Part shown: in pieces, positions 1 through 13,002 of the stretch | How positions within the stretch are numbered: position 1 is the stretch's first letter | Layout: each line of letters opens with the position of its first letter | Made by a program: the position numbers and the translations under genes | Notes under the pieces: model-generated | Databases searched by the model: none | What the model saw: the letters and a program-made list of their open reading frames with translations, nothing else | What the model was told of the DNA's origin: nothing | From: Sporichthya polymorpha DSM 43042 | GTDB taxonomy: Bacteria; Actinomycetota; Actinomycetes; Sporichthyales; Sporichthyaceae | Reading direction: 5' to 3' | Length of the DNA stretch: 64,000 nucleotides | Assembly (NCBI RefSeq): GCF_000384115.1 | Contig: NZ_KB913029.1 | Location: forward strand, 2,204,907-2,268,906

Positions 1-363
1 GGTTGGCTTCGGCTGCAGTGGGACCGGGCGGGGGCCTGGGGCTGCGTGCTCGCCGGCGCCGTCACCCTGTTCATCGGGTGGCTGGGGGTCAGCGAGACGG
101 CGTACACGGCCAAGCAGCTGCCGTACATCGCCGGCTGCGGGCTCGGGGGGATGGCGCTGATCGGCGTCGGCGCGATGCTGTGGCTGTCGGCGGACCTCCG
201 TGACGAGTGGCGCAAGCTGGACCGGATCGAGCAGGCCATCCGGGAGTCCGGCGCCGGCGTCCTGCCCACCGCCGAGAACGGCGCGACCGCGACCGAGCAG
301 TCCAACGGGCACGCCGGCCACCGCGGCGCAGCGCGACCGACCGTGGCGGTCGGTCGGTCCTGA
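1..363 (+). CDS. Small two-TM membrane protein, 5' end outside window
   Basis: The reading frame is open from the first base, so the N-terminus is missing. The visible 120 residues contain two hydrophobic segments, around residues 11-33 and 42-60, followed by a charged tail (RDEWRKLDRIEQAI) likely to face the cytoplasm. The pattern G-W-x2-VS ... Q-x-P ... G-x-G-x2-LW recurs in the next protein, so the two look like diverged paralogues. The stop codon overlaps the next start (TGATG), the first of five overlapping junctions leading into a branched-chain-type ABC importer. The molecular role is unknown. An accessory role for the importer is inferred from position only. Confidence 0.7.
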   Translation, partial: GWLRLQWDRAGAWGCVLAGAVTLFIGWLGVSETAYTAKQLPYIAGCGLGGMALIGVGAMLWLSADLRDEWRKLDRIEQAIRESGAGVLPTAENGATATEQSNGHAGHRGAARPTVAVGRS

Positions 364-791
364 TGTCCTCCACCGCTGCAAGCACCCCCTGGAAACGGAC
401 CGACGCCGTGACGTCGGCGGTCCTGATGGCGGTCGGCGCGATCGTCCTCGTCGCCGGCTGGTGGGAGGTCTCCGACCGGGCCTCGATGGAGTCTCAGATC
501 CCGGCCTTCAACATCGCTGTCCTGGGCCTGGTGCTGATCGGTGCCGGGCAGGGCCTGTGGTTCCTGCGCGGCCGCCGCGCGTGCAGTGACCGGCGTCGAC
601 TCCTCCTGGGCGCGGACGCTGCTCCTGCCGTGATCTCCGCCGCGGTCGAGGACACCGACTCCTTCGCCGGCACCGAGCGCTTCTACCACCGGCTCGACTG
701 CGCGATGGTCGACGACCGGGACTGGGCCCCGAGCCCACGGGCCACGCACGAGCGAGTCGGCCGGACTCCGTGTGGGGTGTGTGCGCCGTGA
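363..791 (+). CDS. Small membrane protein with C-terminal Ada-like Cys/His motif
   Basis: This 142-residue protein has two predicted membrane segments (about 16-34 and 49-69) like those of the preceding protein. Its soluble tail ends with H109-x3-C113 and P136-C137-x2-C140, spaced like the His/Cys zinc motif of Ada-type and related small metal-binding domains. The ATG overlaps the upstream stop, and its own stop overlaps the GTG of the permease gene, so translation is probably coupled. The family is not recognised. Metal binding is inferred from the motif alone, and the link to transport rests on operon position. Confidence 0.7.
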   Translation: MSSTAASTPWKRTDAVTSAVLMAVGAIVLVAGWWEVSDRASMESQIPAFNIAVLGLVLIGAGQGLWFLRGRRACSDRRRLLLGADAAPAVISAAVEDTDSFAGTERFYHRLDCAMVDDRDWAPSPRATHERVGRTPCGVCAP

Positions 792-2842
792 CCGCCGTCA
801 AGCAACGTTTCTCCGACCTGACCGGTCGACTCGGCTACACCGGCTGCTGGATCGCCGGCGCGCTGCTGGTCGTGATCATCGGGGCGCCGGTCGCCGAGGC
901 CCGCAACATGTGGCCGTTCGTGCTGACCGGCATCTCCGACGGGGCGATCTACTCCTTCGCCGCCCTCGGCCTGGTGCTGACGTTCAAGACCTCGGGCATC
1001 TTCAACTTCGCCATCGGCGCGCAGGCTGCCGCATCCGCGTACGTCTTCTACTCCTTCCGCATCGACGCCGGTCTGTCGTGGCCACTCGCCTTCCTGCTCT
1101 CGCTGGTGCTGGTCGGCCTGCTCGGCTCGTTCGTCCTGGAGCGGATCGCGTTCTGGCTCGAAGAGGCGCCCGCGGTGATGAAGGTCGTCGCGACCATCGG
1201 CCTCATCGTGCTGCTGCAGTCCGTGCTCACCGGGGCCTACGGCACCGCCACGCTGCAGTTCCCGCCGTACCTGTCCCAGGAGCAGGTGACCATCGCCGGC
1301 ACCCAGGTCCTGATGAGTCAGATCATCGTTGTCGCCCTCGCACTGGTGGCCACGATCGGGCTGACCCTGTTCTTCCGCCGCAACCGCATCGGTCTGGCCA
1401 TGCAGGCCCTGGTCGACGATCCTGAGCTCCTGGCCTCCGAGGGGACCAGCCCGATCACCGTCCGCCGCTACGCCTGGGCGATCGGGTCGTGCTTCGTCTC
1501 GATCTCCGGGATGCTGATCGCACCGGTGCTCGGCATCGACGTCAACCTGATGCTGCTGCTCTACATCACCGCTTTCGGCGCGGCCGCGCTCGGCGCCTTC
1601 GACAACCTCGCGGTCGCCTTCATCGCCTCCATCGGCATCGGCGTCGCCACCAATGTGCTCGGCAACGAACTCGCCGGCGCGGGCAGCACCTGGGTGACCG
1701 GCCTCTACACGCAGGTTCCGTTCATCGCGCTGGTCGCGGCGCTACTCTTCGTGCCCCGCGCCCGGCTGATCGAGCGCGGCAGCAAGCGCGCCCGCAAGCT
1801 CCCCCCGATCCGTGAGTTCCCGGCCCGGGTGAACGTCGGCATGGCGGTTGCGACGGCCGCGCTGTTCCTGATGCTGCCTCAGATCGTGGCGGCCTCCGAC
1901 CTCAACCAGTTCACGGTCGGCCTCGGCTTCGCGATCGTCCTGCTCTCGCTGGCCCTGCTGCTGTGGTCCTCCGGTCAGATCTCCCTGTGCCAGATGGCCT
2001 TCGCCGCCATCGGGGCTTCGACCTTCGCGCATCTGCAGCAGGCCGGCTTCCCCTGGCTGATGTGTCTGCTGCTCGCGGGCCTGGCCGCAGTGCCGGCCGG
2101 GGCCATCGTCGCGATTCCGTCGTTCCGGCTGTCCGGGGTGTACCTCGCCGTCGCGACCTTCGGGTTCGGGCTGCTCGCGCAGAACCTGCTCTACACCTCC
2201 GGCCTGATGTTCGGCCTCGACAACTCCGAGATCATCGCCCGCCCCGACCTGCCGGGCCTGGAGACGCAGGGCGACACCGGCTACTACTACCTCGTCGTCG
2301 TCATCGCCGGACTGATGGCCGGACTCGTGCTGATGGTGCGCCGCAGCCGCCTCGGCCGCATCCTGCGGGCGCTGGCGGACTCGCCGGCGGCCCTCGACGC
2401 GCACGCCGTGCGGACCAAGGTGACCCGGATCTCGGTGTTCTGCCTCTCGGCCTTCGTCGCGGCCATCGGCGGCGCTCTGATCGGTGGCGCCACCACCGGT
2501 GCCGGCGGCGACGCGGGCGGCCCGTTCGGGTACTTCAACTCCCTCGTCCTCATCGCCGTGCTGGTCTTCTGCTCTCGCCGTCCGATCCTCGGACCGGTGC
2601 TGGCCGCGTTCCTGTTCTCGGTCGCGAAGATCTACCCGCCGATGGACTCCGGCTTCCTCCTCGACTACCGCGGCGCGATCTTCGGCGGGCTCGCCCTGGC
2701 GGTGGCGCTGTGGCCCGGCATCCGCCTGCCCCAGCTGCGGGAACGCGGGGCCGAGCGCGGGGAGAGTTCGCCGGTGTCGGCACGGGCGCACGAGTCCGCA
2801 GAGCGATCCGAGAACGAACTCGTGGGGGCGACGACCCGATGA
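788..2842 (+). CDS. livHM: Fused LivH-LivM branched-chain-type ABC permease
   Basis: A 684-residue polytopic membrane protein joins two permeases that are usually separate. The first half (about 30-310) is LivH-like, with the conserved stretch TSGIFNFAIGAQ. A basic linker near residue 330 leads to a LivM-like half (about 360-640) with GLGFAIVLLSLALLLWSSGQ and a GQISL motif. The family imports branched-chain amino acids, amides, urea or other small organic acids, so the substrate cannot be deduced. GTG was chosen because it gives a GTGA overlap with the upstream stop. An upstream ATG would add six residues and deepen the overlap. The gene ends in an ATGA overlap with the ATPase gene. Confidence 0.93.
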   Translation: MTAVKQRFSDLTGRLGYTGCWIAGALLVVIIGAPVAEARNMWPFVLTGISDGAIYSFAALGLVLTFKTSGIFNFAIGAQAAASAYVFYSFRIDAGLSWPLAFLLSLVLVGLLGSFVLERIAFWLEEAPAVMKVVATIGLIVLLQSVLTGAYGTATLQFPPYLSQEQVTIAGTQVLMSQIIVVALALVATIGLTLFFRRNRIGLAMQALVDDPELLASEGTSPITVRRYAWAIGSCFVSISGMLIAPVLGIDVNLMLLLYITAFGAAALGAFDNLAVAFIASIGIGVATNVLGNELAGAGSTWVTGLYTQVPFIALVAALLFVPRARLIERGSKRARKLPPIREFPARVNVGMAVATAALFLMLPQIVAASDLNQFTVGLGFAIVLLSLALLLWSSGQISLCQMAFAAIGASTFAHLQQAGFPWLMCLLLAGLAAVPAGAIVAIPSFRLSGVYLAVATFGFGLLAQNLLYTSGLMFGLDNSEIIARPDLPGLETQGDTGYYYLVVVIAGLMAGLVLMVRRSRLGRILRALADSPAALDAHAVRTKVTRISVFCLSAFVAAIGGALIGGATTGAGGDAGGPFGYFNSLVLIAVLVFCSRRPILGPVLAAFLFSVAKIYPPMDSGFLLDYRGAIFGGLALAVALWPGIRLPQLRERGAERGESSPVSARAHESAERSENELVGATTR

Positions 2843-3627
2843 GCATGCCTGCTCTCCAGATCGACGACGTCACCGTCAAGTTCGGCGGCCTGACCGCGGT
2901 CTCGCAGTTGTCCCTTCACGCCGAGCCGGGCAGAATCACCGCCCTGATCGGCCCGAACGGCGCTGGGAAGACGACGACCTTCAACGCCTGCACCGGCGTG
3001 GTCCGGACCGCGACCGGTCGGGTCCGGCTCGGCGACCGGAGGTTGGACAAGCTGTCCACGCCGGCGCGGGCGGCGGCCGGACTGGGCCGGACCTTCCAAC
3101 GCATGGAGCTGTTCGACTCCATGTCGGTGATCGAGAACGTCTCCATGGGCCCCGAGGGCGTCCTGTCTTCGCGGCGGCCCTGGGGTCAGTTCTGGGCGCC
3201 GATGTCCGAGCGCCGCGAGATCGCGGAGCGGACCCGGCAGGCGTTGCACCGTTGTGGGTTGGAGGCGGTGACGAACCGCCGGGTGCGTGACCTCTCCACG
3301 GGGCAGCGGCGCCTCGTCGAGCTGGCCCGGGCGATCGCCAGTCCGTTCCGTTTCCTGCTGCTCGACGAACCGTCGTCGGGTCTCGACGTGCACGAGACCG
3401 AGGAGTTCGGCCGCGTCCTGTCCGAGCACGTCCGCGACACCGGCGTCGGCGTGCTGCTCGTCGAGCACGACATGGCGCTGATCGCCGACGTCAGCTCGAC
3501 CGTCTACGTCCTCGACTTCGGTCGGCTGATCTGGACCGGTCCCACGACCGAGGCGATGACCTCGGAGACGGTCCGCGCCGCCTATCTCGGCGGCGACGTG
3601 AACCCGGAGGTCGAGTCGCATGCTTGA
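2839..3627 (+). CDS. livG: ABC transporter ATPase, LivG type
   Basis: This 262-residue nucleotide-binding subunit energises the adjacent permease. Walker A is GPNGAGKTT at residues 38-46. A signature-like LSTGQRRL lies near 155 and Walker B with its catalytic glutamate (LLLDEPSSGL) near 177. The D-loop and switch histidine (VEHDM) follow. The LivG subfamily typically carries an extra segment after the Q-loop, seen here as the stretch with SSRRPWGQFW. The signature has T rather than S (STGQ in place of SGGQ), a common variant in this subfamily. Both ends overlap neighbouring genes, as expected for a co-translated transporter operon. Confidence 0.93.
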   Translation: MSMPALQIDDVTVKFGGLTAVSQLSLHAEPGRITALIGPNGAGKTTTFNACTGVVRTATGRVRLGDRRLDKLSTPARAAAGLGRTFQRMELFDSMSVIENVSMGPEGVLSSRRPWGQFWAPMSERREIAERTRQALHRCGLEAVTNRRVRDLSTGQRRLVELARAIASPFRFLLLDEPSSGLDVHETEEFGRVLSEHVRDTGVGVLLVEHDMALIADVSSTVYVLDFGRLIWTGPTTEAMTSETVRAAYLGGDVNPEVESHA

Positions 3628-4321
3628 GCTGCGCAACGTGTCGGCCGGCTACGAGACGGGTCTGGTGCTGCGGAACGTCTCCCTGACGGTGCCCAAGGCT
3701 TCGGTCGTGGCGCTGCTCGGCGCGAACGGCGCCGGCAAGACCACCTTGCTGCGGGTCGCCTCGGGCCAGCTGAGTCCGGTGAGCGGACAGGTCCGCCTCG
3801 GCGGGGAGGACCTGACCGGCAAGCGGTCGGAGAAGCTGGCCCGCCGTGGGGTGTGCCATGTGCCGGAGGGCCGCGGCATCTTCCCCTCGCTCACCGTCGC
3901 CGACAACATCCGCCTGCAGGCTCCGCCCGGGGTGGACCGGCGCAAGGCCCTGAAGCAGGCCGTCGAGGCCTTCCCGCGTCTCGGTGAGCGTCTCGAGCAG
4001 CGCGCCGGGACCATGTCCGGTGGTGAGCAACAGATGCTCGCGCTCGCTCGCGCCTACGTGTGCGAGCCGCAGGTGGTCCTGCTCGACGAGGTCTCGATGG
4101 GCCTCGCCCCGAAGATCGTCGACGAGATCTTCGTCTACCTGCGGCAGTTGGCGGCGACGGGAATCTCGCTGCTCGTCGTCGAGCAGTACGTCGCGCGGGC
4201 GCTCGAACTCGCCGACTACGTCTACATCCTCGACCGCGGCCGGTTGACCTACGTCGGCGAACCGTCCGAGATCAGTGAAGAAGCAATCGCGCACTCGTAC
4301 CTGGGAGGCCTGGCGTCATGA
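3620..4321 (+). CDS. livF: ABC transporter ATPase, LivF type
   Basis: This 233-residue ATPase is the second nucleotide-binding subunit of the importer. Walker A GANGAGKTT is at residues 34-42, the signature MSGGEQQML near 133 and Walker B VVLLDEVSMGL near 152, followed by VVEQY in place of the more common EHD switch. The length and the EGRGIFP motif match LivF rather than LivG. The start lies inside the end of livG, and the stop overlaps the start of the next gene. The cognate periplasmic binding protein is not in the visible part of the operon and may lie upstream of the window. Confidence 0.93.
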   Translation: MLELRNVSAGYETGLVLRNVSLTVPKASVVALLGANGAGKTTLLRVASGQLSPVSGQVRLGGEDLTGKRSEKLARRGVCHVPEGRGIFPSLTVADNIRLQAPPGVDRRKALKQAVEAFPRLGERLEQRAGTMSGGEQQMLALARAYVCEPQVVLLDEVSMGLAPKIVDEIFVYLRQLAATGISLLVVEQYVARALELADYVYILDRGRLTYVGEPSEISEEAIAHSYLGGLAS

Positions 4322-5637
4322 GCTCGCTCCATCGAATCGTCCGTGCGACGAGTCTCGGCGCCGCCGCGATACTCACCCTCAGCGCGAGCGCATTGGTGTG
4401 GACCGGTACCGCGAGCGCGGCCGCTCCCGACATCTACGACATGAGCGCGGAAGCGGTGGCGCTGCAGACCACGCTCACCGACCCCGGGGTGCCGCTCGGC
4501 ATCCCCTTCTCGGTCGGGTCCTACGGCGCCAGCTCGATTCTCAACAGCAACGGGGAGAGCTCTGCCGACGCCGGAGCGCCGTACTCGCCGCTCGTGTCGT
4601 CGCTGCCGAACACCGGCAACGGCGTCGCGCAGTCGACGTTCGGTACCGGCCTCCCGGTCGTGCCGACCTTTCCCGGGTACGTCAGTGCCAAGGACCCGGT
4701 GCTGCCCAGTAACAAGCAGAACGCGGGCGGCTACGAACTGGTCGCGGACGCGGTGCCGGGCAAGTCGTCCGGCCGGGTCAATATCGGCGGTCAGTCCGCA
4801 ACGTCGGAGGAGAACAATGCCTTCGCCTTCGCGGACAGCGTGGCCGGCGAGGACGGGATCGTCACCCGGGGCTCGGCCGGCGTCCATGCCCTGTCCTTCG
4901 ACGGCATTCTCGACGTCTTCAACGTCTCGTCCTTCGCGAGCCTGACCCGCGGCCCCGACGGACGCACCACCCCCGTGACCACGACCGACCTCGGCACGAT
5001 CAGCTTCGCCGGGCTGAAGTCCGGCCTGACCGGCGATGGTTTCACCGCGCTGGGGTCAGCGCCGGTGCCGCTCGACACCGCCGGCCTCGCAGCCCTCAAC
5101 GGCGCCCTCAAGCCGGCGGGCATCACCCTGACCTACCTGCCGGAGATCTACGCCTACACCGACGGATCGACGAGTACAGGCCCGGCGGTCGACGCGAAGA
5201 AGGACGTCTCCGGCGTGATGTCCGGCGCGCTGCAGATCTTCTTCTCCAACACTTCCGAGCGCGGCACCACCACCGAGACCGTCACGATCGGCCGGGTCTC
5301 CCTGACCGCCACGAGCAACTCGCTGGCCGGGGGAGTCGCCGGCGCGGCCCCCGCCGCAGCGGCCGGCGCCACGGGCGGCACCGCGCTGCCGTCCACCGGA
5401 ACCACCGGGATCGACGCTGCCGGTCTCGGCGCTGCGGGCCTGGGCGCGCTCCCCACCTCGACTGCTCCGACGGCGGCTCAGGCTCCGGCCCAGACGTTCA
5501 TACCGGCCGCGGTGGGCTCGATCCTCCCCGAGGGCACCACCTCGTGGGAGAGCTTCTACCTGATCCTCGCGGTCGCCGCCGCGTCCGCTCTCGCCGGTGC
5601 CCAGGTCGTCCGCCTGTTGGCGGTGCGGGGACGCTGA
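4318..5637 (+). CDS. Secreted surface protein with C-terminal membrane anchor, coupled to Liv operon
   Basis: A 439-residue exported protein. A signal peptide occupies residues 1 to about 36 (positive SSLHR, hydrophobic core, ASA-A cleavage). The middle is rich in Ser, Thr, Gly and short beta-like segments, without a domain I can name. An Ala/Gly/Pro-rich linker precedes a C-terminal membrane helix near 412-434, ending in RGR. This suggests a wall-spanning protein tethered to the membrane. The ATG overlaps the livF stop by four bases, so it is probably translated with the importer. It does not resemble a Liv substrate-binding protein, being small-residue rich with no periplasmic-binding fold visible. 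Role unknown. Confidence 0.8.
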   Translation: MSSLHRIVRATSLGAAAILTLSASALVWTGTASAAAPDIYDMSAEAVALQTTLTDPGVPLGIPFSVGSYGASSILNSNGESSADAGAPYSPLVSSLPNTGNGVAQSTFGTGLPVVPTFPGYVSAKDPVLPSNKQNAGGYELVADAVPGKSSGRVNIGGQSATSEENNAFAFADSVAGEDGIVTRGSAGVHALSFDGILDVFNVSSFASLTRGPDGRTTPVTTTDLGTISFAGLKSGLTGDGFTALGSAPVPLDTAGLAALNGALKPAGITLTYLPEIYAYTDGSTSTGPAVDAKKDVSGVMSGALQIFFSNTSERGTTTETVTIGRVSLTATSNSLAGGVAGAAPAAAAGATGGTALPSTGTTGIDAAGLGAAGLGALPTSTAPTAAQAPAQTFIPAAVGSILPEGTTSWESFYLILAVAAASALAGAQVVRLLAVRGR

Positions 5638-5895
5638 GAGGCTCCTACTCCTGAGCGCCGCCGCGTGTCCCGGCAACCACGGTCCGGGCGTCTTCTCAGA
5701 GGTCAGCCCTGCGCGAGCGGGTCGCTCGGTGCGACCACCTTGGTGCAGTTGGCCGGCCCGCGGCCAAATCGGGGACTAGCAGGAAGACTGTGTGAGCCCG
5801 CGAGAGGTCCTCGCGTTGCCAGCCAATCTGCGGCCAAATCGTGGCGACCGTCGTGGTTGCAGACGCTGCAGAGGCCCAACGCGAGGTTTCTGTAC
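5638..5895. other. Non-coding gap with a 12-base direct repeat
   Basis: No credible gene is visible between the surface protein and the first tRNA-like sequence. The 12-mer GCGGCCAAATCG occurs twice (5760-5771 and 5830-5841), 70 bases apart. No clear terminator follows the operon. Confidence 0.5.
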
Positions 5896-5970
5896 GCTCG
5901 TGGAGGCAGGTGCAACGTTCTGCGTCCGCCTTGTAATCGAAAGGTTGCCGGTTCAAGTCCGGCCGCCGGC
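5896..5970 (+). repeat. tRNA-Thr(TGT)-like sequence, copy 1 (possible att site or pseudo-tRNA)
   Basis: The last 44 bases (5927-5970) look like the 3' half of a threonine tRNA. They include an anticodon loop CTTGTAA with TGT anticodon, a perfect T-arm (GCCGG/TTCAAGT/CCGGC) and the 3' acceptor strand CGCCGGC. They are identical to 9329-9372. The 5' part (GCTCGTG...) can partly pair with the acceptor strand, but the D-arm and anticodon stem lack the canonical bases (no T8, no A14, no GG in the D loop). This is therefore probably not a working tRNA. Integrase attachment remnants usually keep exactly this 3' half. Confidence 0.6.
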
Positions 5971-6488
5971 CCTTCTGACCTGCGGAAACGCGCGGTTCTC
6001 GCCGTTTGCGACATCGATGACGTTAAGAAAGTTGACGTCATCATCGAGTGGTTCGGTTCACTCCGGACGCCTGCGCGCGACTCTGCTCGCATCGGGAGGC
6101 TCGCTGTCTGCGAAACCTGTCGATGAGTGACGTGGTGGCGCACGGGGTTCTGGCCGGCCCCGCTCGAACGACCGCTAAGCAGCACGGCTAGATCACGACT
6201 CGCGGCGTCTGGCATTGGACCTCGACCCGGCGCAGCTGTGATCGAAGGCGGCCTGGCGGGCCGGCCCCACGAGCGAGGCGGGTACGACGCAAGCCCCTTC
6301 ACTCTGGCGGTGCTCCAAGGTCGAGGCGCGACGGAGCGTTTGTCGAGCCGCAAATATCGCGGCGCAATTGGGTGCGGCGTGACGAGCGGTGAGTATCGGT
6401 CGATCGGCCGCGGTGGCCAGTGCTTTTGGCCGATGCCGGGCGGTGCGTTTCGTTCCTAACCTCGCTTGGGAAGGGGTTGGTATTTGTC
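5971..6488. other. Non-coding region between tRNA-like repeat and secreted protein gene
   Basis: Only short frames without coding character are seen in these 518 bases. An inverted repeat GATGACGT/ACGTCATC (6016-6023 and 6035-6042) could form a hairpin or an operator. A purine-rich ribosome-binding site (GGGAAGGGG, 6468-6476) precedes the next gene. No integrase or transposase remnant could be recognised. Confidence 0.5.
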
Positions 6489-8966
6489 GTGCGCCGAGGT
6501 GTCCTGCTCGCCGTGTCAGCGGCTCTGTTGGCGTTGCTGACACCGGTCGGCTCGGCCGAGGCTGTCGAGGTCGGGCCCGCAGCGCCCTACGACGTGCTGA
6601 CGATGACCGGCTCGCACAACGGGTCCGATACCTGGGCGCTCGCGTACGGCGAGAAATCTGGTGACTCCGTATGGAGGCGGAACTACGCCGCGACCACGGG
6701 CATAATCGGGCTTTCTGGCACGCGGCAGTACCCGAACAGCAGTGATTTCGACAGCGCGAGCGTCACGCTGTATCCGCCCGTTGGTGAAGATCGGCTGGAG
6801 GCGGGGCGCACCTACCAGGTCGCCTCACTCGCGGACGAGACGCACGCGGGTCTATCCCGCTCAGTGAACTCCTCGGGCTGCCAGGGAACGGGCAGCTTCA
6901 CGGTCCATGAGCTCGCCTTCGCCGAGGACGGTCGACCCTCGCAGATGGCGATCTCCTTCGACATCACGTGCCCCGGAGCCGGCGGGTCGACCACTCACGG
7001 GGAGTTGCGTTGGAACAGCTCAATGCCGTTCGAGGCCGTCGAGGTGTCACCGGACTGGCTCGAACTATGGAGCGTGGTCGTCGGAACCACCCGGACGCGG
7101 ACGGTGACCTACCGCAACGCCGGGACCAGCGCCGTCACGATCACCAGACTGGACTTCGCCGGCCCAGGCGCCGCGGACTGGTCCGTCCTGTCCACCGACT
7201 GCCTCACGACCTTGGGGTCAGGACAGTCCTGCACCGCGGCCGTGGCGGTCACGCCCACCACAACCGGCAACCGGGATGCCCTTCTGCGCTTCACCGACGA
7301 CACCAGGCGTAGCCCCAGCGTCGAGTTCCAGATCGACGTCAAGGGCGTGAGCGCGCCGACCAATGTCAAGGTCGCGGCGCTGCAGGGCCGCAATGTGATC
7401 ACTTGGCAGCCGGGTCCAGGTCGCCTGCCGGACCGGTACGAGATCGTGAGGACCGGTGGTCTGAATCCGAGCATCACCTTCAAGGCGCCGGCCGGTGCTA
7501 CCTCCTACCTCGATGACCTCCCGGGAGAAGGCAGGAAGACTTACGAGGTCGTGGCCTACCCGGCCGACGAGAAGATGAATGACCAGACTGCCGCGGCTCC
7601 AAGAGTGTCGGTCGAAGCGGCGGACCGTGAGCTCATCCTGGTCGGCGACGACGGCAGCGGCCAGACCCACCTAATGATCGGGTCGGTGGGGTCGAGTACG
7701 TCCATCACTCCCGATGGCCCGGGCGGTGTGGTCACCAGCGCCCCCACGATGGCACCCGGCGGACGCATGATCTATTACACGAAGGGAACCGGCGCTACGG
7801 CCGAGGTGTGGCGCTATGACCTCTTAGGTGGACAGTACGGAACCCTGACGGAGTGCGTCAGCTGCCACGACGACATTCACGGCGCGGATCCCGCCTACTC
7901 GCCGGACTCGAACCGCGTCGCGCTGGTGTCACCCACCGGCGCGCTGCTGCTCTGGCACCAGAGCCTTGCGGATGATTTGCGCGTCGTTTCCGGGGTGTCG
8001 GGCGTCGCCGAACCGTCCTGGCTGCGCGACAGCTCCGGCCTCGTCGTCGCGTCCCCGGTCGGCGCGGCCCTGCGCCGAGTCCTCCTGTCCGGCGAGGAGC
8101 GCGACGTCGGAACGGCGGCCCCGCTTCCCGGCACCGAGGGTGCCCGCAAGCCTGCTGTCAGTCCGGACAACAGCCGCGTCGCGTACCTGGCACCGGCCGC
8201 TGGCGGCACGGCGCTTCGGGTCATCCGGCTCGCCGGCGGCGCACCGACCACGGTGCTGCCCGGGGGTGACCTGCGCGGCGTGAGCTGGACGCCGGACGGA
8301 TCGGCGGTCGTCGTGACCCGCGCCGCAGCGGGCGGCGGCTCGGAGGTGGTGTCGGTCAACGTGGCCACCGGCGCGACGGCGACGCTGTTCACCACGGTGG
8401 ATCGGCTGCAGAACGCGCTACTTCGTCTGCGCGACCTGACTCCTCCTCAGCTATCCATCAACGGTCCGGTGAACACCGGACTGAACCCCACCATCACCTT
8501 CACCGCCGCGGACAACATCACCCCAAGCAGCGGGCTGAGGTACAGCTGCGCACTCGATAACTACCTCGCTCAGCCCTGCGGGCCGACCAGCTGGTCCGGC
8601 ACTGTCTTACCCGGAGCCCACACCCTGACCGTCTACGTCGGAGACGTCATGGGCGCCAACGCCGCCAGCGCGACCCACCACTTCACGGCGGCGGCATCAG
8701 TCGTCGACCGGACACCGCCGCGCACCACGCTGACCTCGAAGCGGTTCACGAACACCAAGGACCGGACCCCGACCTTCAAATTCAGCGCCAACGAACATCC
8801 GGTGCGCTTTCAGTGCCGGATGGACCGCGGTCAGTGGAAGGCGTGCAACTCGGTATGGACATCGCCCCGGCTCACCAAAGGCAAGCACACCTTCCGCGTC
8901 CGGGCGGTGGATCGATCAGGCAACCTCGACCCGACCCCCGCGGTACACACCTTCCGAGTGAAGTGA
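6489..8966 (+). CDS. Secreted multidomain protein: anchor-D-like, FN3, beta-propeller and Ig-like domains
   Basis: An 825-residue exported protein. The GTG start gives a clean signal peptide (MRRGVLLAVSAALLAL ... AEA) and has a GGGAAGGGG site upstream. Longer starts would place residues before the signal. After the N-terminal region (to about 180) comes a choice-of-anchor-D-like beta domain with LGSGQSCTAAV (about 190-285), then a fibronectin-III-like domain (285-380). PD40/TolB-like propeller repeats with SPDSNRVALVS, SPDNSRVAYLA and TPDGSAVVV follow (380-640). Two C-terminal Ig-like repeats are each introduced by TPP and contain paired cysteines. The gene is the only one between two tRNA-like direct repeats. 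It may be a surface or adhesion protein; its substrate is unknown. Confidence 0.85.
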   Translation: MRRGVLLAVSAALLALLTPVGSAEAVEVGPAAPYDVLTMTGSHNGSDTWALAYGEKSGDSVWRRNYAATTGIIGLSGTRQYPNSSDFDSASVTLYPPVGEDRLEAGRTYQVASLADETHAGLSRSVNSSGCQGTGSFTVHELAFAEDGRPSQMAISFDITCPGAGGSTTHGELRWNSSMPFEAVEVSPDWLELWSVVVGTTRTRTVTYRNAGTSAVTITRLDFAGPGAADWSVLSTDCLTTLGSGQSCTAAVAVTPTTTGNRDALLRFTDDTRRSPSVEFQIDVKGVSAPTNVKVAALQGRNVITWQPGPGRLPDRYEIVRTGGLNPSITFKAPAGATSYLDDLPGEGRKTYEVVAYPADEKMNDQTAAAPRVSVEAADRELILVGDDGSGQTHLMIGSVGSSTSITPDGPGGVVTSAPTMAPGGRMIYYTKGTGATAEVWRYDLLGGQYGTLTECVSCHDDIHGADPAYSPDSNRVALVSPTGALLLWHQSLADDLRVVSGVSGVAEPSWLRDSSGLVVASPVGAALRRVLLSGEERDVGTAAPLPGTEGARKPAVSPDNSRVAYLAPAAGGTALRVIRLAGGAPTTVLPGGDLRGVSWTPDGSAVVVTRAAAGGGSEVVSVNVATGATATLFTTVDRLQNALLRLRDLTPPQLSINGPVNTGLNPTITFTAADNITPSSGLRYSCALDNYLAQPCGPTSWSGTVLPGAHTLTVYVGDVMGANAASATHHFTAAASVVDRTPPRTTLTSKRFTNTKDRTPTFKFSANEHPVRFQCRMDRGQWKACNSVWTSPRLTKGKHTFRVRAVDRSGNLDPTPAVHTFRVK

Positions 8967-9297
8967 GAACGCTTGGTCAGGCCCTCGGTGCGTGGATGCA
9001 TCAGCGATGACGTGATGAACGCTCCGGCGAATCTGTTCGAGGGCGACAACAGGCTGCTTATGCGGTCGGTCGTCTCCGGCACGTGCGGACCATTCGTCAG
9101 CGGCTTTCAGCTCGGCCGTACCAAACGCGGCAACCGCAGGTGGTTGCGGCTGGTTGGTCGTCGAACTACGAGGCGTGGGGGCCTTCCCCCGAGCCGCGGC
9201 CCGGAGGGCCAGTCGCGTCATGTTAAATCTCACGATAAGCAGGATGCGATCGGCGTGGTTCCAGGGGGTCGTGAGGCTCCAGCTGAAACTCCCGTCC
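8967..9297. other. Non-coding gap after secreted protein
   Basis: No gene, RNA or clear terminator is recognisable in these 331 bases. Short frames on both strands lack similarity to anything I know and have weaker third-position G/C preference than the flanking genes. Confidence 0.5.
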
Positions 9298-9372
9298 GCT
9301 GGTGGGGCGAGGTGCGGTGCCCCTCGGGCGCCTTGTAATCGAAAGGTTGCCGGTTCAAGTCCGGCCGCCGGC
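9298..9372 (+). repeat. tRNA-Thr(TGT)-like sequence, copy 2 (possible att site or pseudo-tRNA)
   Basis: The 44 bases at 9329-9372 are identical to the first copy, 3402 bases away in the same orientation. The 35 upstream bases match copy 1 at 22 positions with no gap, so the similarity covers a whole tRNA length. GCTGGTG at the 5' end can pair with CGCCGGC at the 3' end through two G-U pairs. The D-arm and anticodon stem are not canonical. It is either a decayed tRNA duplicate or the boundary of an integrated element. Confidence 0.6.
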
Positions 9373-9477
9373 TCTCTCCGCTGCGCAGAATCGACCGGTG
9401 AGGCGCCGTCCTGACCGGTCGACATCCGCTGCGTCGTCGACGGAATGGCGAGTCGCGGGCCGGTCCGCTACCCCTGC

Positions 9478-9880
9478 TCAGCTGCCGCGAACGGCGCCGT
9501 CGGGGTATGCGGGGGTGTGGACGTTGACGTAGAAGCGGGCCGGGTTCGCGAGGATCTCGGCGACCTTGACCTTGCCGGGAACGGCTTTCACGCCGCTGGC
9601 CAGCGTCTCGCCCTCGGTGAGGCAGTCGGCGGAGTTCCCGTCGAACGGGGCGGCCAGGTTGATCAGCACCGGACCGTTCTTGCCCTTAGCGCCCCGGTGG
9701 ATGTGCGCGGCCATGCCTTCGGCGGCGAAGTCGACCTTCTTGACACGCAGGACGTAGCACAGGGTCTTCGGGTCACCGTCGATCCCGAACTCGGAGATCG
9801 AACCGAAGCCGTCGGGGTCACCCCTCTTGACCCTGGGCGCCGCTGAGCTTCGCCGCGGCGACGCCGTTCGTGTGGGTGGT
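9478..9880 (-). pseudogene. CHRD-domain protein, frameshifted and lacking a signal peptide
   Basis: The C-terminal frame contains a clear CHRD domain (GMAAHIHRGAKGKNGPV, then RFYVNVHTPAYPDGAVRG). CHRD domains occur in secreted proteins and chordin. The expected domain start, AAAKLSGAQGQEG, lies in another frame and runs into a stop. Removing one base from the run of four C at 9821-9824 joins the frames into AKLSGAQGQEGDPDGFGS, a normal CHRD opening. No signal peptide is visible upstream. The gene therefore looks disabled, although a sequencing error in the homopolymer would give the same frameshift. It lies just outside the second tRNA-like repeat. Confidence 0.7.
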
Positions 9881-9999
9881 CCGGATTGGTGACGGGTGGC
9901 TGGGCTCCGTCTCGAGCAGATCGCCAGGTGGGTTCTGGCTTCTCGGATCCGGAACTGGCGCGGAATCGGTTGAGAGCCGACCACCGTGAGGAGCCTCCG

Positions 10000-10101
10000 A
10001 TGAGCGTTGTCGTCGATCCCCGTCCCCGTCATCACGAGGCCGGCACCGCTTGTGCTTTCGCCCGATGCGGCGAGGCGGTCGCCGAGGTCCGGCGATCATG
10101 A
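10000..10101 (+). CDS. Possible 33-residue leader peptide upstream of TPR/hydrolase genes
   Basis: A very short frame begins with ATG after a good ribosome-binding site (GTGAGGAG, 9986-9993). It ends in an ATGA overlap with the next small gene. The predicted peptide begins MSVVVDPRPRHHEAG and has no recognised family. Its spacing and coupling make it plausible as a leader or small protein. It could also be chance, as no homology is known to me. Confidence 0.3.
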   Translation: MSVVVDPRPRHHEAGTACAFARCGEAVAEVRRS

Positions 10102-10385
10102 CAGCCGTGTTCGCGGCGTGGGCCGCGGTGCTGGTCGGTTCGGCCCGCGCGCGACTGCTCACCGTCGACGACGGAATCGATCTCGTCCGCGGTTCGTGCG
10201 GCAGGGCGGTGGAGGCGCATCTGCGCGCGGTCGCGCTGGCGGAGACGACCTTCGGGGATCCGCACGACGCCGCGGTCACCGCTCAAGCGCTGGCCGTGAC
10301 GTTCACGCGCGCCGGCCGGTTCGACGACGCCGAGGTGCTGTTCCGCCGGGCGCTCAGCATCACCGGGACGCGAGGTGCGCGATGA
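10098..10385 (+). CDS. Small TPR-like protein
   Basis: The 95-residue product starts with a short hydrophobic stretch (MTAVFAAWAAVLVGSARA). It then shows a single tetratricopeptide-like unit: AVEAHLRAVALAETTFGD, then AQALAVTFTRAGRFDDAEVL. TPR units normally come in arrays and mediate protein contacts, so this may be a fragment of a larger protein or a small adaptor. It overlaps both neighbours by ATGA junctions, consistent with an operon ending in the alpha/beta hydrolase. The function is unknown. Confidence 0.5.
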   Translation: MTAVFAAWAAVLVGSARARLLTVDDGIDLVRGSCGRAVEAHLRAVALAETTFGDPHDAAVTAQALAVTFTRAGRFDDAEVLFRRALSITGTRGAR

Positions 10386-11464
10386 CGTGTCCCATCGCGT
10401 GGCAACCGCACGCCCTCGCGCCCGTGTTCTACGGCGCTCGCAGTCTCGCTTTCGGGGACACCACGCTGCCTTCCGGCGGGACCACCTCTCGCAGGTCGGA
10501 CCCCAGCGCACCCCCGGTCCCGCTGCGGATCTTCTACCCCAGCCTGGACGGCGCGGTTGAGACCGCGCCCATCCTCAAAGGATGTGGGCGGTACCCCGTC
10601 GTGCTGTTCGCGCACGGCCACTGTGCGGGTGACCGCGAGCATTACCGCCGATGGTTCACGATCCCGGCGCAACTCGCGCGGGCGGGCTACGTCGTCGTGG
10701 TCCCCCACCTCCCGGGCAATGCCGGGGGCCAGTTCCATCCCTCGCAGCCGGCCCATCCGGACGAGGCGACGCTCGAGGCCGTCCTGTCCTGGGTGCGGTC
10801 CGGGTGGGTGCACGCCGACCTGGTTCTGCCGCCGCCCGCGACCGGAGTGGTCGGGCACAGCTACGGCGCGATGATGGGCGCTCGGTTCGCGGTCGATCGG
10901 CCGGTGTCCGCCTACGCCGGCCTGAGCGGCGGCTGGCAGGAGTGGTTCGGTGCGGAACCCTTCCCGCTGCCGCTGCTCGACATCCCGAACCTGCTCGTCT
11001 GGGGGGAGGGCATGGATCGGAACAGTCCGCTGCCGGACGGGATCTGGGAGACCATGAGACGGCCTCGGCATCGGGTGATCTTCGCCGAGGGCGAGCACTG
11101 GGACTACCTCGACGCCACCGTCCGCCTTCCCGGCAACCCGGGCCGGGGGCCCTGTCCTCACGTGGCGCGGGCGACGGCGGACCTGCTGACGATGTTCTTC
11201 GGTCGCTACCTCCCGCCGGAGTTCGCCGGCGACCTGCACTACCGCATTCCGCTGACCCTGGTGCCGCCGAGGCTCGATCTCACGGTGGAGCAGGAGTTCT
11301 ACGCCGGTGGATATCTCGGCGGGTACGAGGCGTTGGCCGACGACGCGCGATGTGGCGTCGCCGTGAGTTACGAACTGCCGTCGTGGGTCCGTCTCGACCT
11401 GCCGTGGCGCCGGCCGAAACGCCGAACGGGCCCCGGACGTGGTGCCCGGAGCCCGTTCGGGTAG
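10382..11464 (+). CDS. Alpha/beta hydrolase, chlorophyllase/PET-hydrolase-like fold
   Basis: A 360-residue serine hydrolase. The oxyanion segment is VVLFAHGHCAG, the nucleophile elbow VVGHSYGAMMG has Ser160, and a late EGEHWDYLD carries the likely catalytic His. The probable acid is in the LLVWGEGMD region. There is no signal peptide, so it is probably cytoplasmic, with an ester or amide substrate that cannot be named. The ATG overlaps the stop of the TPR-like gene. The last codons (KRRTGPGRGARSPFG) are read from a strong hairpin that also serves the convergent csp gene. The C-terminus may therefore have been extended by the repeat. Confidence 0.85.
   Translation: MTCPIAWQPHALAPVFYGARSLAFGDTTLPSGGTTSRRSDPSAPPVPLRIFYPSLDGAVETAPILKGCGRYPVVLFAHGHCAGDREHYRRWFTIPAQLARAGYVVVVPHLPGNAGGQFHPSQPAHPDEATLEAVLSWVRSGWVHADLVLPPPATGVVGHSYGAMMGARFAVDRPVSAYAGLSGGWQEWFGAEPFPLPLLDIPNLLVWGEGMDRNSPLPDGIWETMRRPRHRVIFAEGEHWDYLDATVRLPGNPGRGPCPHVARATADLLTMFFGRYLPPEFAGDLHYRIPLTLVPPRLDLTVEQEFYAGGYLGGYEALADDARCGVAVSYELPSWVRLDLPWRRPKRRTGPGRGARSPFG
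11422..11460. terminator. Hairpin between hydrolase and csp, likely bidirectional terminator
   Basis: Arms 11422-11437 and 11445-11460 (CCGAACGGGC.../...GCCCGTTCGG) pair with one mismatch around a seven-base loop. The hairpin lies downstream of csp on the minus strand and inside the last codons of the hydrolase gene. No T-tract is present, as is usual in high-GC actinobacteria. Confidence 0.6.
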
Positions 11465-11471
11465 TGCGAGG

Positions 11472-11672
11472 TCAGACCGGGCGGACGTTCTCCGCCTGCG
11501 GGCCCTTGGGGCCCTGGGTGATCTCGAGCTCGACGCGCTGGTTCTCGTCGAGCGAGCGGTAGCCACTGGCGTTGATCGCCGAGTAGTGGACGAAGACGTC
11601 GGGCTGGCCCTCGACGGCGATGAAGCCGAAGCCCTTCTCGCCGTTGAACCACTTCACAGTGCCCTGAACCAT
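11472..11672 (-). CDS. csp: Cold shock protein (CspA family)
   Basis: A 66-residue single cold-shock domain that binds single-stranded RNA and DNA. RNP1 is KGFGFIAV (about 13-20) and RNP2 is VFVHY (about 27-31). The start [11 protein letters not shown] is diagnostic. ATG follows GGAGGAACACC on the minus strand. It is close in sequence to a second csp gene at 55.1 kb. The upstream region to about 11.86 kb is free of genes and may include a long leader, as is known for csp mRNAs, with a possible -10 (TATCGT) near 11824-11829. Which of the two copies responds to cold cannot be told. Confidence 0.95.
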
Positions 11673-11998
11673 GGTGTTCCTCCTGCCGCATCCGACGGTG
11701 AGTCGCCTGCCCCGGATGGGCGTGCTGGGCTCCGTCGTTCGTGATGCGTTGTGCGCCCTGCGGATCTACAAATCCGCGGACGTCAGGAACGGCGTGGATC
11801 GTAAACACTTGCAACTGCGGACCACGATAGCAGTCACCGAACCGGCCCCAGCCTGACGAACCGTCATGTGATCTGCGCGACCCGGAGGCCGAGCCGCTGA
11901 CCTGCAGGAATGCGCTCACTTCAGTCGGCGCTGTGGGAAAGATTCGCGTCGTCCGGTCGGATCCGAAGACCGGTTTGGGTCGATTTGAGACCTGACTC
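11673..11998. other. csp upstream region, no gene seen
   Basis: These 326 bases hold the csp promoter and leader on the minus strand. A possible -10 element TATCGT (minus strand) lies at 11824-11829. I see no gene, RNA motif or repeat beyond this. Confidence 0.4.
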
Positions 11999-12277
11999 AT
12001 GGGCGCGGGCGTCACGGTCCGGACGCTGCACCCGTACGCGGGGGACGCGCGGCCCGAACGCTTGGACGTCGGCGGGGCCGGGGCCGAGGCCGGCGCGATC
12101 ACCGTCGACCTTACCCTCGCCGCCGCCGAGGACGAGCTGTTCGTCGGCCGCGGCCACGACGGCCTCGTCCGCCGCGATGTCGAGTTCGCCGCCGCGAAGG
12201 CGGTGCCGGCACGCAACTTCGCGGCTGTGGTGCGGGTCCACCTCGACCTGAGTCGCGTCCGCTCTTCTGCACACTGA
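11999..12277 (+). CDS. Hypothetical protein of 92 residues
   Basis: The frame shows strong G/C preference at third codon positions compared with the opposite strand, which supports coding on the plus strand. The product begins MGAGVTVRTLHPYAGDARP and ends near the sortase gene. No domain, signal peptide or membrane segment is recognised. No convincing ribosome-binding site precedes the ATG, so the start is uncertain. The call rests on codon character only. Confidence 0.35.
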   Translation: MGAGVTVRTLHPYAGDARPERLDVGGAGAEAGAITVDLTLAAAEDELFVGRGHDGLVRRDVEFAAAKAVPARNFAAVVRVHLDLSRVRSSAH

Positions 12278-12993: not shown

Positions 12994-13002
12994 GAACGCC
13001 GG

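Follow-up and report, generated by a model that had tools for sequence, protein, structure and literature searches.

The directly repeated tRNA fragments of Sporichthya polymorpha DSM 43042 (genome G000) are very probably att junctions of genomic islands that lined up in tandem, each inserted behind another, at the 3' end of a tRNA-Thr(TGT) gene. The two copies in the window (the whole stretch of DNA analysed, 64 kb), copies A and B, are att scars bounding the last and smaller of two tandem segments in this genome. The array most likely consists of integrase-less, cis-mobilizable islands that were built up by accretion and have decayed in G000, and it adds a new case to an established type of genomic-island array. 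A soil actinobacterium has here accumulated genes for catabolism and toxin-antitoxin systems, tens of kilobases in all, at a single tRNA gene with no resident integrase, and its sister species (G002) has likewise gathered about 150 kb if two of its contigs adjoin. The defined att site, a core with three boxes, provides a handle for seeking the missing helper integrase, and the mobile elements appear to have swapped half of the host tRNA for their own variant.

Direct repeats and the intact tRNA-Thr gene

The initial annotation described a 44-base 3' half of tRNA-Thr(TGT) occurring twice in direct orientation, 3402 bases apart, which is borne out by the exact coordinates (Table 1; start-to-start distance 3402) and an ARAGORN match. 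All directly repeated 24-mers of the window fall within this exact repeat. ARAGORN found zero tRNAs over the 64-kb window; the intact tRNA-Thr(TGT) gene, with which the annotation proposed to compare the 3' end, was located by the same program outside the window at G000:C1:2178201-2178274, 32.6 kb upstream and on the same strand as the repeats. It is identical to positions 5930-5970 (41 nt), and its presence answers the objection, raised in the annotation itself, that the genome might hold no similar tRNA-Thr gene. Across the 5.5-Mb genome the repeat core occurs three times, all on the same strand and including the intact gene, with identity over 41 nt among the gene and copies A and B. Rfam at the gathering threshold returned nothing but tRNAs at 17 loci.

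Elements and cargo

The window holds only the distal end of element 1, as the tRNA gene and most of its 32.6 kb lie upstream. The genes of this distal end include a branched-chain-type ABC transporter and a 439-aa secreted protein with no Pfam match. Element 2 comprises the 3.4 kb between copies A and B and carries a single 2.5-kb gene; no recombinase family match falls within it, in agreement with the annotation, which saw one gene and no integrase there. The product of the gene appears from its N-terminus to be secreted and has weak Ig-like matches, and a search of 148 genomes gave part-length relatives only. The G+C content is 70.1% in element 1 and 67.1% in element 2, compared to 72.5-72.8% in the flanks. 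The suggestion of a mini-element, decayed island or recombination cassette holds insofar as a small inserted segment without integrase lies between att-type repeats, but the intact tRNA gene and most of the 32.6-kb element upstream were not visible to the annotation.

Table 1. Features of the array and its surroundings in the G000 window
Feature	Position in window	Strand	Remarks
Element 1, distal part	1-5926	+	Element 1 spans 32.6 kb, from the tRNA gene (G000:C1:2178201) to copy A
Fused permease, branched-chain-type ABC transporter	770-2842	+	Element 1; named from translation
ATPases, branched-chain-type ABC transporter	about 2839-3627, 3620-4321	+	Element 1; named from translations
439-aa secreted protein	4318-5637	+	Element 1
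Diverged left arm of copy A	5844-5926	+	50/83 ungapped matches to the left arm of copy B; TGACGTTRA box absent farther left
Stretch around copy A	5894-6349	+	90% identical to the junction at G002:C8:311951-312405; covers the inner part of the left arm, the core and the P'-like right arm
Copy A	5927-5970	+	44-nt repeat, 41 nt of it the tRNA-Thr(TGT) 3' half; internal att junction of elements 1 and 2
TGACCTGCGGAAACG	5976-5990	+	Immediately right of the copy A core; widespread actinobacterial 15-mer
TGACGTTAA box	6018-6026	+	Right arm of copy A; spacing +47/48 as in five G002 junctions
Element 2 cargo gene	6420-8966	+	848 aa if counted from the first start, or 825 aa with the likelier start at 6489
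Left (P-like) arm of copy B	9214-9331	+	80-83% identity to the corresponding arms at two G002 junctions; lacks an intact TGACGTTRA box
Copy B	9329-9372	+	Second 44-nt repeat, closing the array distally; not followed by a right arm
Variable 2 kb past the last att copy	9373-11417		Encodes a CHRD-domain protein and an alpha/beta hydrolase; unmatched on G002 C11 in the comparison
First shared chromosome past the array	11418-12076		91.5% identical to G002:C11:136871-136213

Comparison with related genomes

The annotation proposed to check related genomes for an empty or differently filled site, and held that the same arrangement conserved without movement would speak against mobility. G000, G001 and G002 each fill the site differently. 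An empty site was found in none of G001, G002 and G004, and in G003 the site was not located. In G002, five copies of the repeat core lie on contig C8, all direct, and contig C11 carries a degenerate core copy together with the conserved right flank. Long colinearity with this contig starts at window position 13001 (92.6-97.3% identity within the window). The elements measure 32.6 and 3.4 kb in G000, and 23.1, 1.8, 30.8, 54.2 kb and more in G002. The site holds 36 kb in G000. Its G002 counterpart would come to about 150 kb, provided that C8 and C11, which are not joined in the assembly, adjoin. The 7.2-kb filling of G001 terminates with 21 nt copied from the tRNA end.

The cargo of the arrays consists largely of catabolic genes with AbiE/Fic modules, and the 1.8-kb element of G002 contains just an AbiEi/AbiEii pair. 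Element 1 of G000 and the third G002 element share blocks of which the two longest are 82-83% identical, whereas the flanks of the two genomes are 91% (left) and 89-97% (right) identical, which argues against simple vertical descent of the shared cargo.

Arms and boxes around the cores

The 22 ungapped matches that the annotation counted in the 35 bases upstream of the repeats were recounted as 21/35; the similarity itself is real and extends to 50/83 matches over 83 nt. In a separate control, in which copies A and B were compared without gaps, this value exceeded every one of 1,995 random window pairs (mean 24.8, largest 46). The left flank of copy B is 80-83% identical over 120 nt to those of two G002 junctions, and its left arm only 58-61% identical to those of two further ones. 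Compared with the tRNA copies, the same flank reaches 49-55% identity, close to the 51% mean of random pairs; the mean alone was used for this baseline because its maximum of 100%, perhaps due to very short local alignments, is unexplained. The similarity upstream of the repeats is no tRNA 5' half; it corresponds to the left arm of an att site.

The annotation had also considered duplicated pseudo-tRNAs, formed by duplication or by homologous recombination between tRNA-gene copies. The identity of the copies over 41 nt is compatible with homologous exchange between them. However, the duplication has a sharp start within the anticodon loop, the copies are 1.8 to 54 kb apart with differing cargo, and the explanation is rejected because the flanks match the arms of other junctions rather than the tRNA 5' half. 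We regard it as highly improbable.

In G002, TGACGTTRA boxes occur about 115 and 103 nt to the left (-115 and -103) and 48 nt to the right (+48) of the core. The spacing is -115/-103/+48 at three junctions, -111/-99/+48 at a fourth and -103/+48 at a fifth. The arms are placed as a tandem array predicts: the tRNA copy of G002 has a right arm and no left arm, internal junctions have both, and the last copy of G000 (copy B) has only a left arm. The fit of the G000 arms to the att model is partial. Copy A has both arms, the left one diverged, with the right box kept and the left boxes absent, copy B lacks an intact box, and the tRNA copy has just 23 nt of right arm in common with a G002 junction.

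The missing left boxes at copy A would also be consistent with a single 36-kb island that entered G000 once, with copy A as a secondary site inside it or a scar left by a later deletion. Element 1 likewise stops about 250 bp past the last homologous block, where G002 has COX3/COX4-like genes. On the other hand, the right arm of copy A lies within 455 nt that are 90% identical to a G002 junction starting a different element, copy A also has its diverged left arm, and the multi-junction form is directly seen in G002, which makes a single entry improbable.

The exact left box pair was found in one of 393 genomes of the class, G002, with five occurrences, all at the tRNA-Thr locus. This confinement, together with the fixed distances of the boxes in G002, indicates that both G000 and G002 carry tandem site-specific insertions. 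When up to two mismatches were allowed in five genomes, G002 gave six arm pairs and G001 a single one. Of these seven, six stand beside a full or truncated core, and one in G002 (C11:139848) has no core behind it. The reversed control gave two matches in G001 and one in G004 at this threshold, and single matches in 5 of the 393 genomes at up to one mismatch. With the latter threshold, the arm pair itself was found in G002 and as one single-mismatch match in G285. Neither the arm pair nor a degenerate core matched any viral contig (0 matches each), and the att region matched 3 plasmid and 4 phage records only within the core, over 34-41 nt; the phage matches are annotated tRNA-Thr.

A scan of the genome collection with a right-arm pattern returned at least 118 stretches. 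Among the matches listed, one Sporichthya contig (L111, contig C342 of G001) and one similar stretch (L184) were found; the others reflect the 15-mer TGACCTGCGGAAACG, which is widespread and apparently unrelated to the att site. This 15-mer might belong to what we presume to be a known mycobacterial terminator class. Folding below -18 kcal/mol did not separate segments with the 15-mer (119/131) from random ones (219/236), and a literature search for the string returned no paper.

Integrase search and origin of the array

Profile searches gave 32 tyrosine recombinase matches (PF00589) in G000, the nearest about 231 kb from the array, and 13 in G002, of which some are partial and none lies in C8 195-320 kb or on C11. 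The serine recombinase profile (PF00239) matched once in G000 (1523638) and not in G002, and no match falls in the assembled arrays. A resident integrase next to an att end, as in an autonomous ICE/AICE or a prophage, was accordingly not found in the assembled arrays. No helper integrase or circular form was found in whole-genome profiles, viral contigs, plasmids, phages or the 393 genomes of the class.

As in CIMEs, the elements follow one another in tandem at a single target and each keeps an att site at either end, with the G000 arms partly decayed, and no integrase is present inside the elements of the assembled arrays. A tyrosine integrase may have been supplied from elsewhere, by a helper element, a plasmid or a lost neighbour. 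attP circles would have recombined into the tRNA gene or into a resident junction, and at each insertion the 3' half brought in would have served to rebuild the tRNA. The islands now resident would be integrase-less, cis-mobilizable units, and those in G000 are probably no longer mobile because their arm boxes have decayed.

Alternatively, the islands may never have had an integrase, being cargo cassettes with an attP-like end pair that were served in trans by one dedicated integrase, so that the locus would be a tRNA-anchored analogue of an integron array. Such cassettes would account for the lack of PF00589 and PF00239 matches in the G000 elements and in the assembled parts of at least six G002 elements, for G002 junction arms that look intact despite the missing recombinases, and for very small units such as the AbiEi/AbiEii element and the one-gene element 2. 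Deletion of an integrase would give the same picture, however, and the arm pair occurs outside the array at only one single-mismatch place in the 393 genomes and in no viral contig, with plasmids and phages matching the core only. We consider this reading possible but unlikely. A more speculative proposal, to which we give rather little weight, is a tRNA-anchored gene-capture array whose cassettes, of one gene to 54 kb and all in the same orientation, have an attP-like pair of ends in common and are inserted and shuffled in trans by a tyrosine integrase whose gene lies elsewhere. With every insertion the 3' half of an essential tRNA would be re-supplied, so that the host tRNA-Thr, which has a C27-A43 mismatch, would now be a chimera.

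Relation to known systems

Among the papers listed for Sporichthya and genomic islands, none is on such an array, judged by title. The accretion of integrase-less islands favoured here has a close parallel in the ssrA islands of Dehalococcoides, which the relevant parts of PMC3146451 describe as tandem islands that lie up to 100 kb downstream of an RNA gene and are bordered by that gene and by directly repeated copies of its 3' end. Fifteen of them lack integration modules and are described there as possible cis-mobilizable elements that move by accretion. Both systems consist of tandem islands with metabolic cargo at the 3' end of an RNA gene. The target in Dehalococcoides is tmRNA, with a 20-bp repeat, and 16 of the islands there have retained an integration module, which includes serine recombinases (PMC3146451, in part). 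In Sporichthya the target is tRNA-Thr, with a repeat of 41-44 nt and visible arm boxes, and no recombinase family match falls in the assembled arrays of the two species. Tandem insertion at one target, with att sites kept without integration genes, is likewise described for CIME/ICE accretion in passages of PMC5704250, although no ICE or IME partner carrying an integrase was found in the Sporichthya array.

In the portion of PMC10872708 on Methylophilaceae, the island fGI-2 has a variable number of direct tRNA-end repeats (20 nt, tRNA-Lys) and ranges from 330 bp to 42 kb, comparable to the very variable islands of Sporichthya. That portion describes no arms, and the cargo of fGI-2 is mostly of unknown function, in contrast to the largely catabolic cargo in Sporichthya. 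Tycheposons, as treated in part of the same source, share the tRNA anchor, cargo and variability, but are described with a tyrosine recombinase, while the Sporichthya elements have no PF00589 match. Integrons need an IntI-type tyrosine recombinase beside the array, and no PF00589 match lies near that of G000 or G002. The Sporichthya junctions are tRNA halves with arm boxes; attC sites would be expected between the cassettes of an integron.

Tandem Elements at tRNA-Thr(TGT)

The direct repeat reported in the initial annotation holds: two exact 44-nt copies (A and B), spaced by 3402 nt, contain all directly repeated 24-mers of the window. ARAGORN predicted no tRNA gene inside the window, and the intact tRNA-Thr gene that the annotation had proposed to seek lies 32.6 kb upstream of copy A on the same strand. 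In the S. polymorpha genome (G000; 5.50 Mb, single contig), the window spans C1:2204907-2268906, and the 41-nt core, i.e., the 3′ half of this tRNA, occurs at three places with ≤3 mismatches, and a 21-nt 3′ piece with ≤2 mismatches finds the identical three. The stretches from the tRNA gene to copy A (32.6 kb) and from copy A to copy B (3.4 kb) are referred to as elements 1 and 2, and together as the array.

Among 60 genomes searched, G000 included, the core (≤3 mismatches) was found only in G000 and its sister species G002, which has five direct copies on contig C8. A sixth, degenerate core (4/41 mismatches) with both flanking arms is on contig C11, as is the chromosome found 3′ of the array in G000, colinear from G000 2216324/2217907 in blocks of 89–97% identity. 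Based on the shared downstream chromosome and the degenerate core, C8 and C11, which are unjoined in the assembly, most likely hold the two ends of one ~150-kb array, where the same place in G000 holds 36 kb. Just beyond the array, G002 has ~31 kb (L084–L085, L075) compared to 0.9 kb in G000, and no core copy was detected in this stretch at ≤12 mismatches.

In the relative G001, a 7.2-kb stretch lies behind the tRNA-Thr, with genes judged by reading to encode sugar metabolism and redox enzymes. It is closed by 21 nt that repeat the tRNA end exactly, and then comes the backbone that G000 has 22 kb beyond copy B. In G004, contig C104 ends with the tRNA, and C3 starts with an exact 45-nt copy of the tRNA half, 7.2 kb from a stretch matching the G000 backbone in reverse; the two pieces presumably belong together. 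In G003, the search did not locate the site and gave a weak match only. Of the two outcomes the annotation had suggested looking for in relatives, a different filling was observed (36 kb in G000, 7.2 kb in G001), and no empty site was seen in G001, G002, or G004. A second tandem array in Sporichthya, at tRNA-Leu(TAA), is present in G001 (L076).

Positions of the core copies and associated features
Feature	Location	Position
Intact tRNA-Thr(TGT)	G000	2178201-2178274
Copy A	window	5927-5970
Copy B	window	9329-9372
Cores (direct)	G002:C8	202042 (tRNA gene), 225191, 227007, 257803, 311988
Degenerate core	G002:C11	~141.6 kb
Arm pair, core-less	G002:C11	139848
Stretch beyond array	G002:C11	104825-136213
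Stretch beyond array	G000	2216982-2217907
AbiEi/AbiEii modules	G002, L018; L075	10598-11844; 9958-11437
tRNA-Leu(TAA) array	G001:C342, L076	2987-17158
tRNA-Leu(TAA) 3′-region pieces	L076	~6.6 and ~13.4 kb
Integrase fragments	L076	3443-3729; 16801-17087
Left arm and truncated att, tRNA-Thr type	L076	~6.24-6.38 kb
Antisense ORFs	window	5703-6353 (-); 8916-9425 (-)
15-mer	window	5976-5990
Arm-pair match	G285:C6, L254	768-788

Junction Arms and the Missing Integrase

The arms beside the core can carry TGACGTTRA boxes. Four G002 C8 junctions have two left boxes 12 nt apart (−115/−103 from the core in three, −111/−99 in one) and one right box at +48, and the C11 copy keeps the −103 and +48 boxes with a degenerate −115 box. 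The G002 tRNA copy has a right box with one mismatch and no left arm. In G000, the tRNA copy has 23 nt of right arm in common with a G002 junction, copy A has a right box at +47 and a left arm without left boxes, and copy B lacks a right arm and has no intact box in its left arm. The right flank of copy A is 92% identical to that of the G002 junction at 311988, and the left arms of copies A and B match ungapped at 50/83 positions (among 1,995 random pairs, the mean was 24.8 and the highest value 46).

The similar 5′ parts of the two copies had been considered a possible sign of duplicated pseudo-tRNAs, and the comparison speaks against this. The 120-nt left flank of copy B is 80–83% identical to those of two G002 junctions, 76% to that of the C11 junction, and 58–61% to those of two others, compared to 49–55% for the tRNA copies, near the random-pair mean of 51%; it is an element arm. 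Lambda-type tyrosine integrase systems are expected to give the order attL, attP-like internal junctions, and attR. The arm order is the same here, with the G000 arms decayed, and this decay suggests that the G000 array is now a fossil.

Across five genomes, the arm pair (≤2 mismatches) occurs at six places in G002, one in G001, and none in G000, G003, or G004 (reversed control: two in G001, one in G004). A full or truncated core is beside six of the seven, and the seventh has no recognizable core behind it. Among 393 class genomes (≤1 mismatch), five places are in G002, all exact and all at the array locus, and one further single-mismatch place, outside the genus, is in G285; the reversed control gave single matches in five other genomes.

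As the annotation stated, no integrase lies between the repeats (no PF00589 or PF00239 match). G000 contains 32 PF00589 matches, of which even the closest is ~231 kb away from the array, and the 13 of G002 all lie outside the array stretches; PF00239 has one match in G000, far from the array, and none in G002. The acting integrase is most likely encoded outside the array; the islands may have lost their integrases, a decay resembling that of cis-mobilizable elements (CIMEs), or may never have carried any. Most likely, element circles recombined into the tRNA gene or a resident junction, in both cases at the anticodon-loop region; each insertion at the tRNA would have rebuilt it with the incoming half and pushed older elements outward. 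The nearest relatives found are the tandem islands at ssrA in Dehalococcoides, of which 16 carry integration modules and 15 do not (PMC3146451), CIME accretion (PMC5704250), and fGI-2 of Methylophilaceae, an island bounded by tRNA-Lys repeats (PMC10872708).

Cargo

Apart from the Fic and AbiE genes, gene names in element 1 and G002 come from reading translations. Element 1 starts with a Fic-domain gene (best PADLOC model SoFic), followed by dehydrogenase, MaoC-like, thiolase, acyl-CoA dehydrogenase, ligase, monooxygenase, and regulator genes and a branched-chain-type transporter set. Element 2 holds, as annotated, a single gene, whose product has 848 aa when counted from the first start and Ig-like Pfam matches that are all sub-threshold. 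This protein has matches in 33 of 148 genomes, G000 included, and none in G002; the other 32 match only partly, mostly over the last 80–180 residues.

The G002 cargo reads as catabolic like that of G000, plus two AbiEi/AbiEii modules of ~1.8 kb at separate array junctions with different best PADLOC models, the second ending at the core-less arm pair. The two longest blocks that element 1 has in common with the third G002 element extend over 2.9 kb (83% identity) and 8.3 kb (82%), with additional weaker matches, some inverted, compared to 91% identity in the left flank of the array. Therefore, an element homologous to element 1 occupies a different array position in G002, having diverged more than the backbone.

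Antisense ORFs with a common peptide, PAAGLEPATFRLQG, span both copies. Reading frames antisense to tRNAs are a source of spurious annotated proteins.

Variation of the tRNA-Thr Halves

The tRNA-Thr 3′ half is identical in G000 and G002. The G000 3′ half differs at 5/40 positions from G001 and 6/40 from G004, and the 5′ half at 1/32 and 0/32, respectively; G001 and G004, from different genera, differ at 1/40 and 1/32. The 3′ half of G012, from another family, is 5 to 11/40 from G000, G001, and G004, more distant from all three, so that 3′ halves are more variable in any case. In canonical numbering, the G000 half leaves the anticodon stem with a C27-A43 mismatch at its base. The variant half is common to all eight exact cores of G000 and G002, and from these small numbers we infer that the G000 3′ half may have come from the elements.

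A 15-mer Beside the Core

Immediately to the right of the core lies the 15-mer TGACCTGCGGAAACG, which has 70 occurrences in 34 of 60 class genomes, array copies counted; the reversed pattern has none. For a longer pattern, a loose text test places 21 of 120 listed matches directly after tRNA-type 3′ ends, and several are, by eye, near dnaA-box-like sequence. A tyrosine recombinase match lies within 1.5 kb of 22 of 125 motif loci, a raw count over loci pooled from two different searches. Rfam families at 17 of the 15-mer loci were tRNA only, and a paper search found no mention of the string. In Streptomyces sp. IBSBF 2953 (L114), two tRNA(CAT)-type 3′ halves are 3.2 kb apart with the 15-mer behind each, resembling the small repeat-bounded segment of the window.
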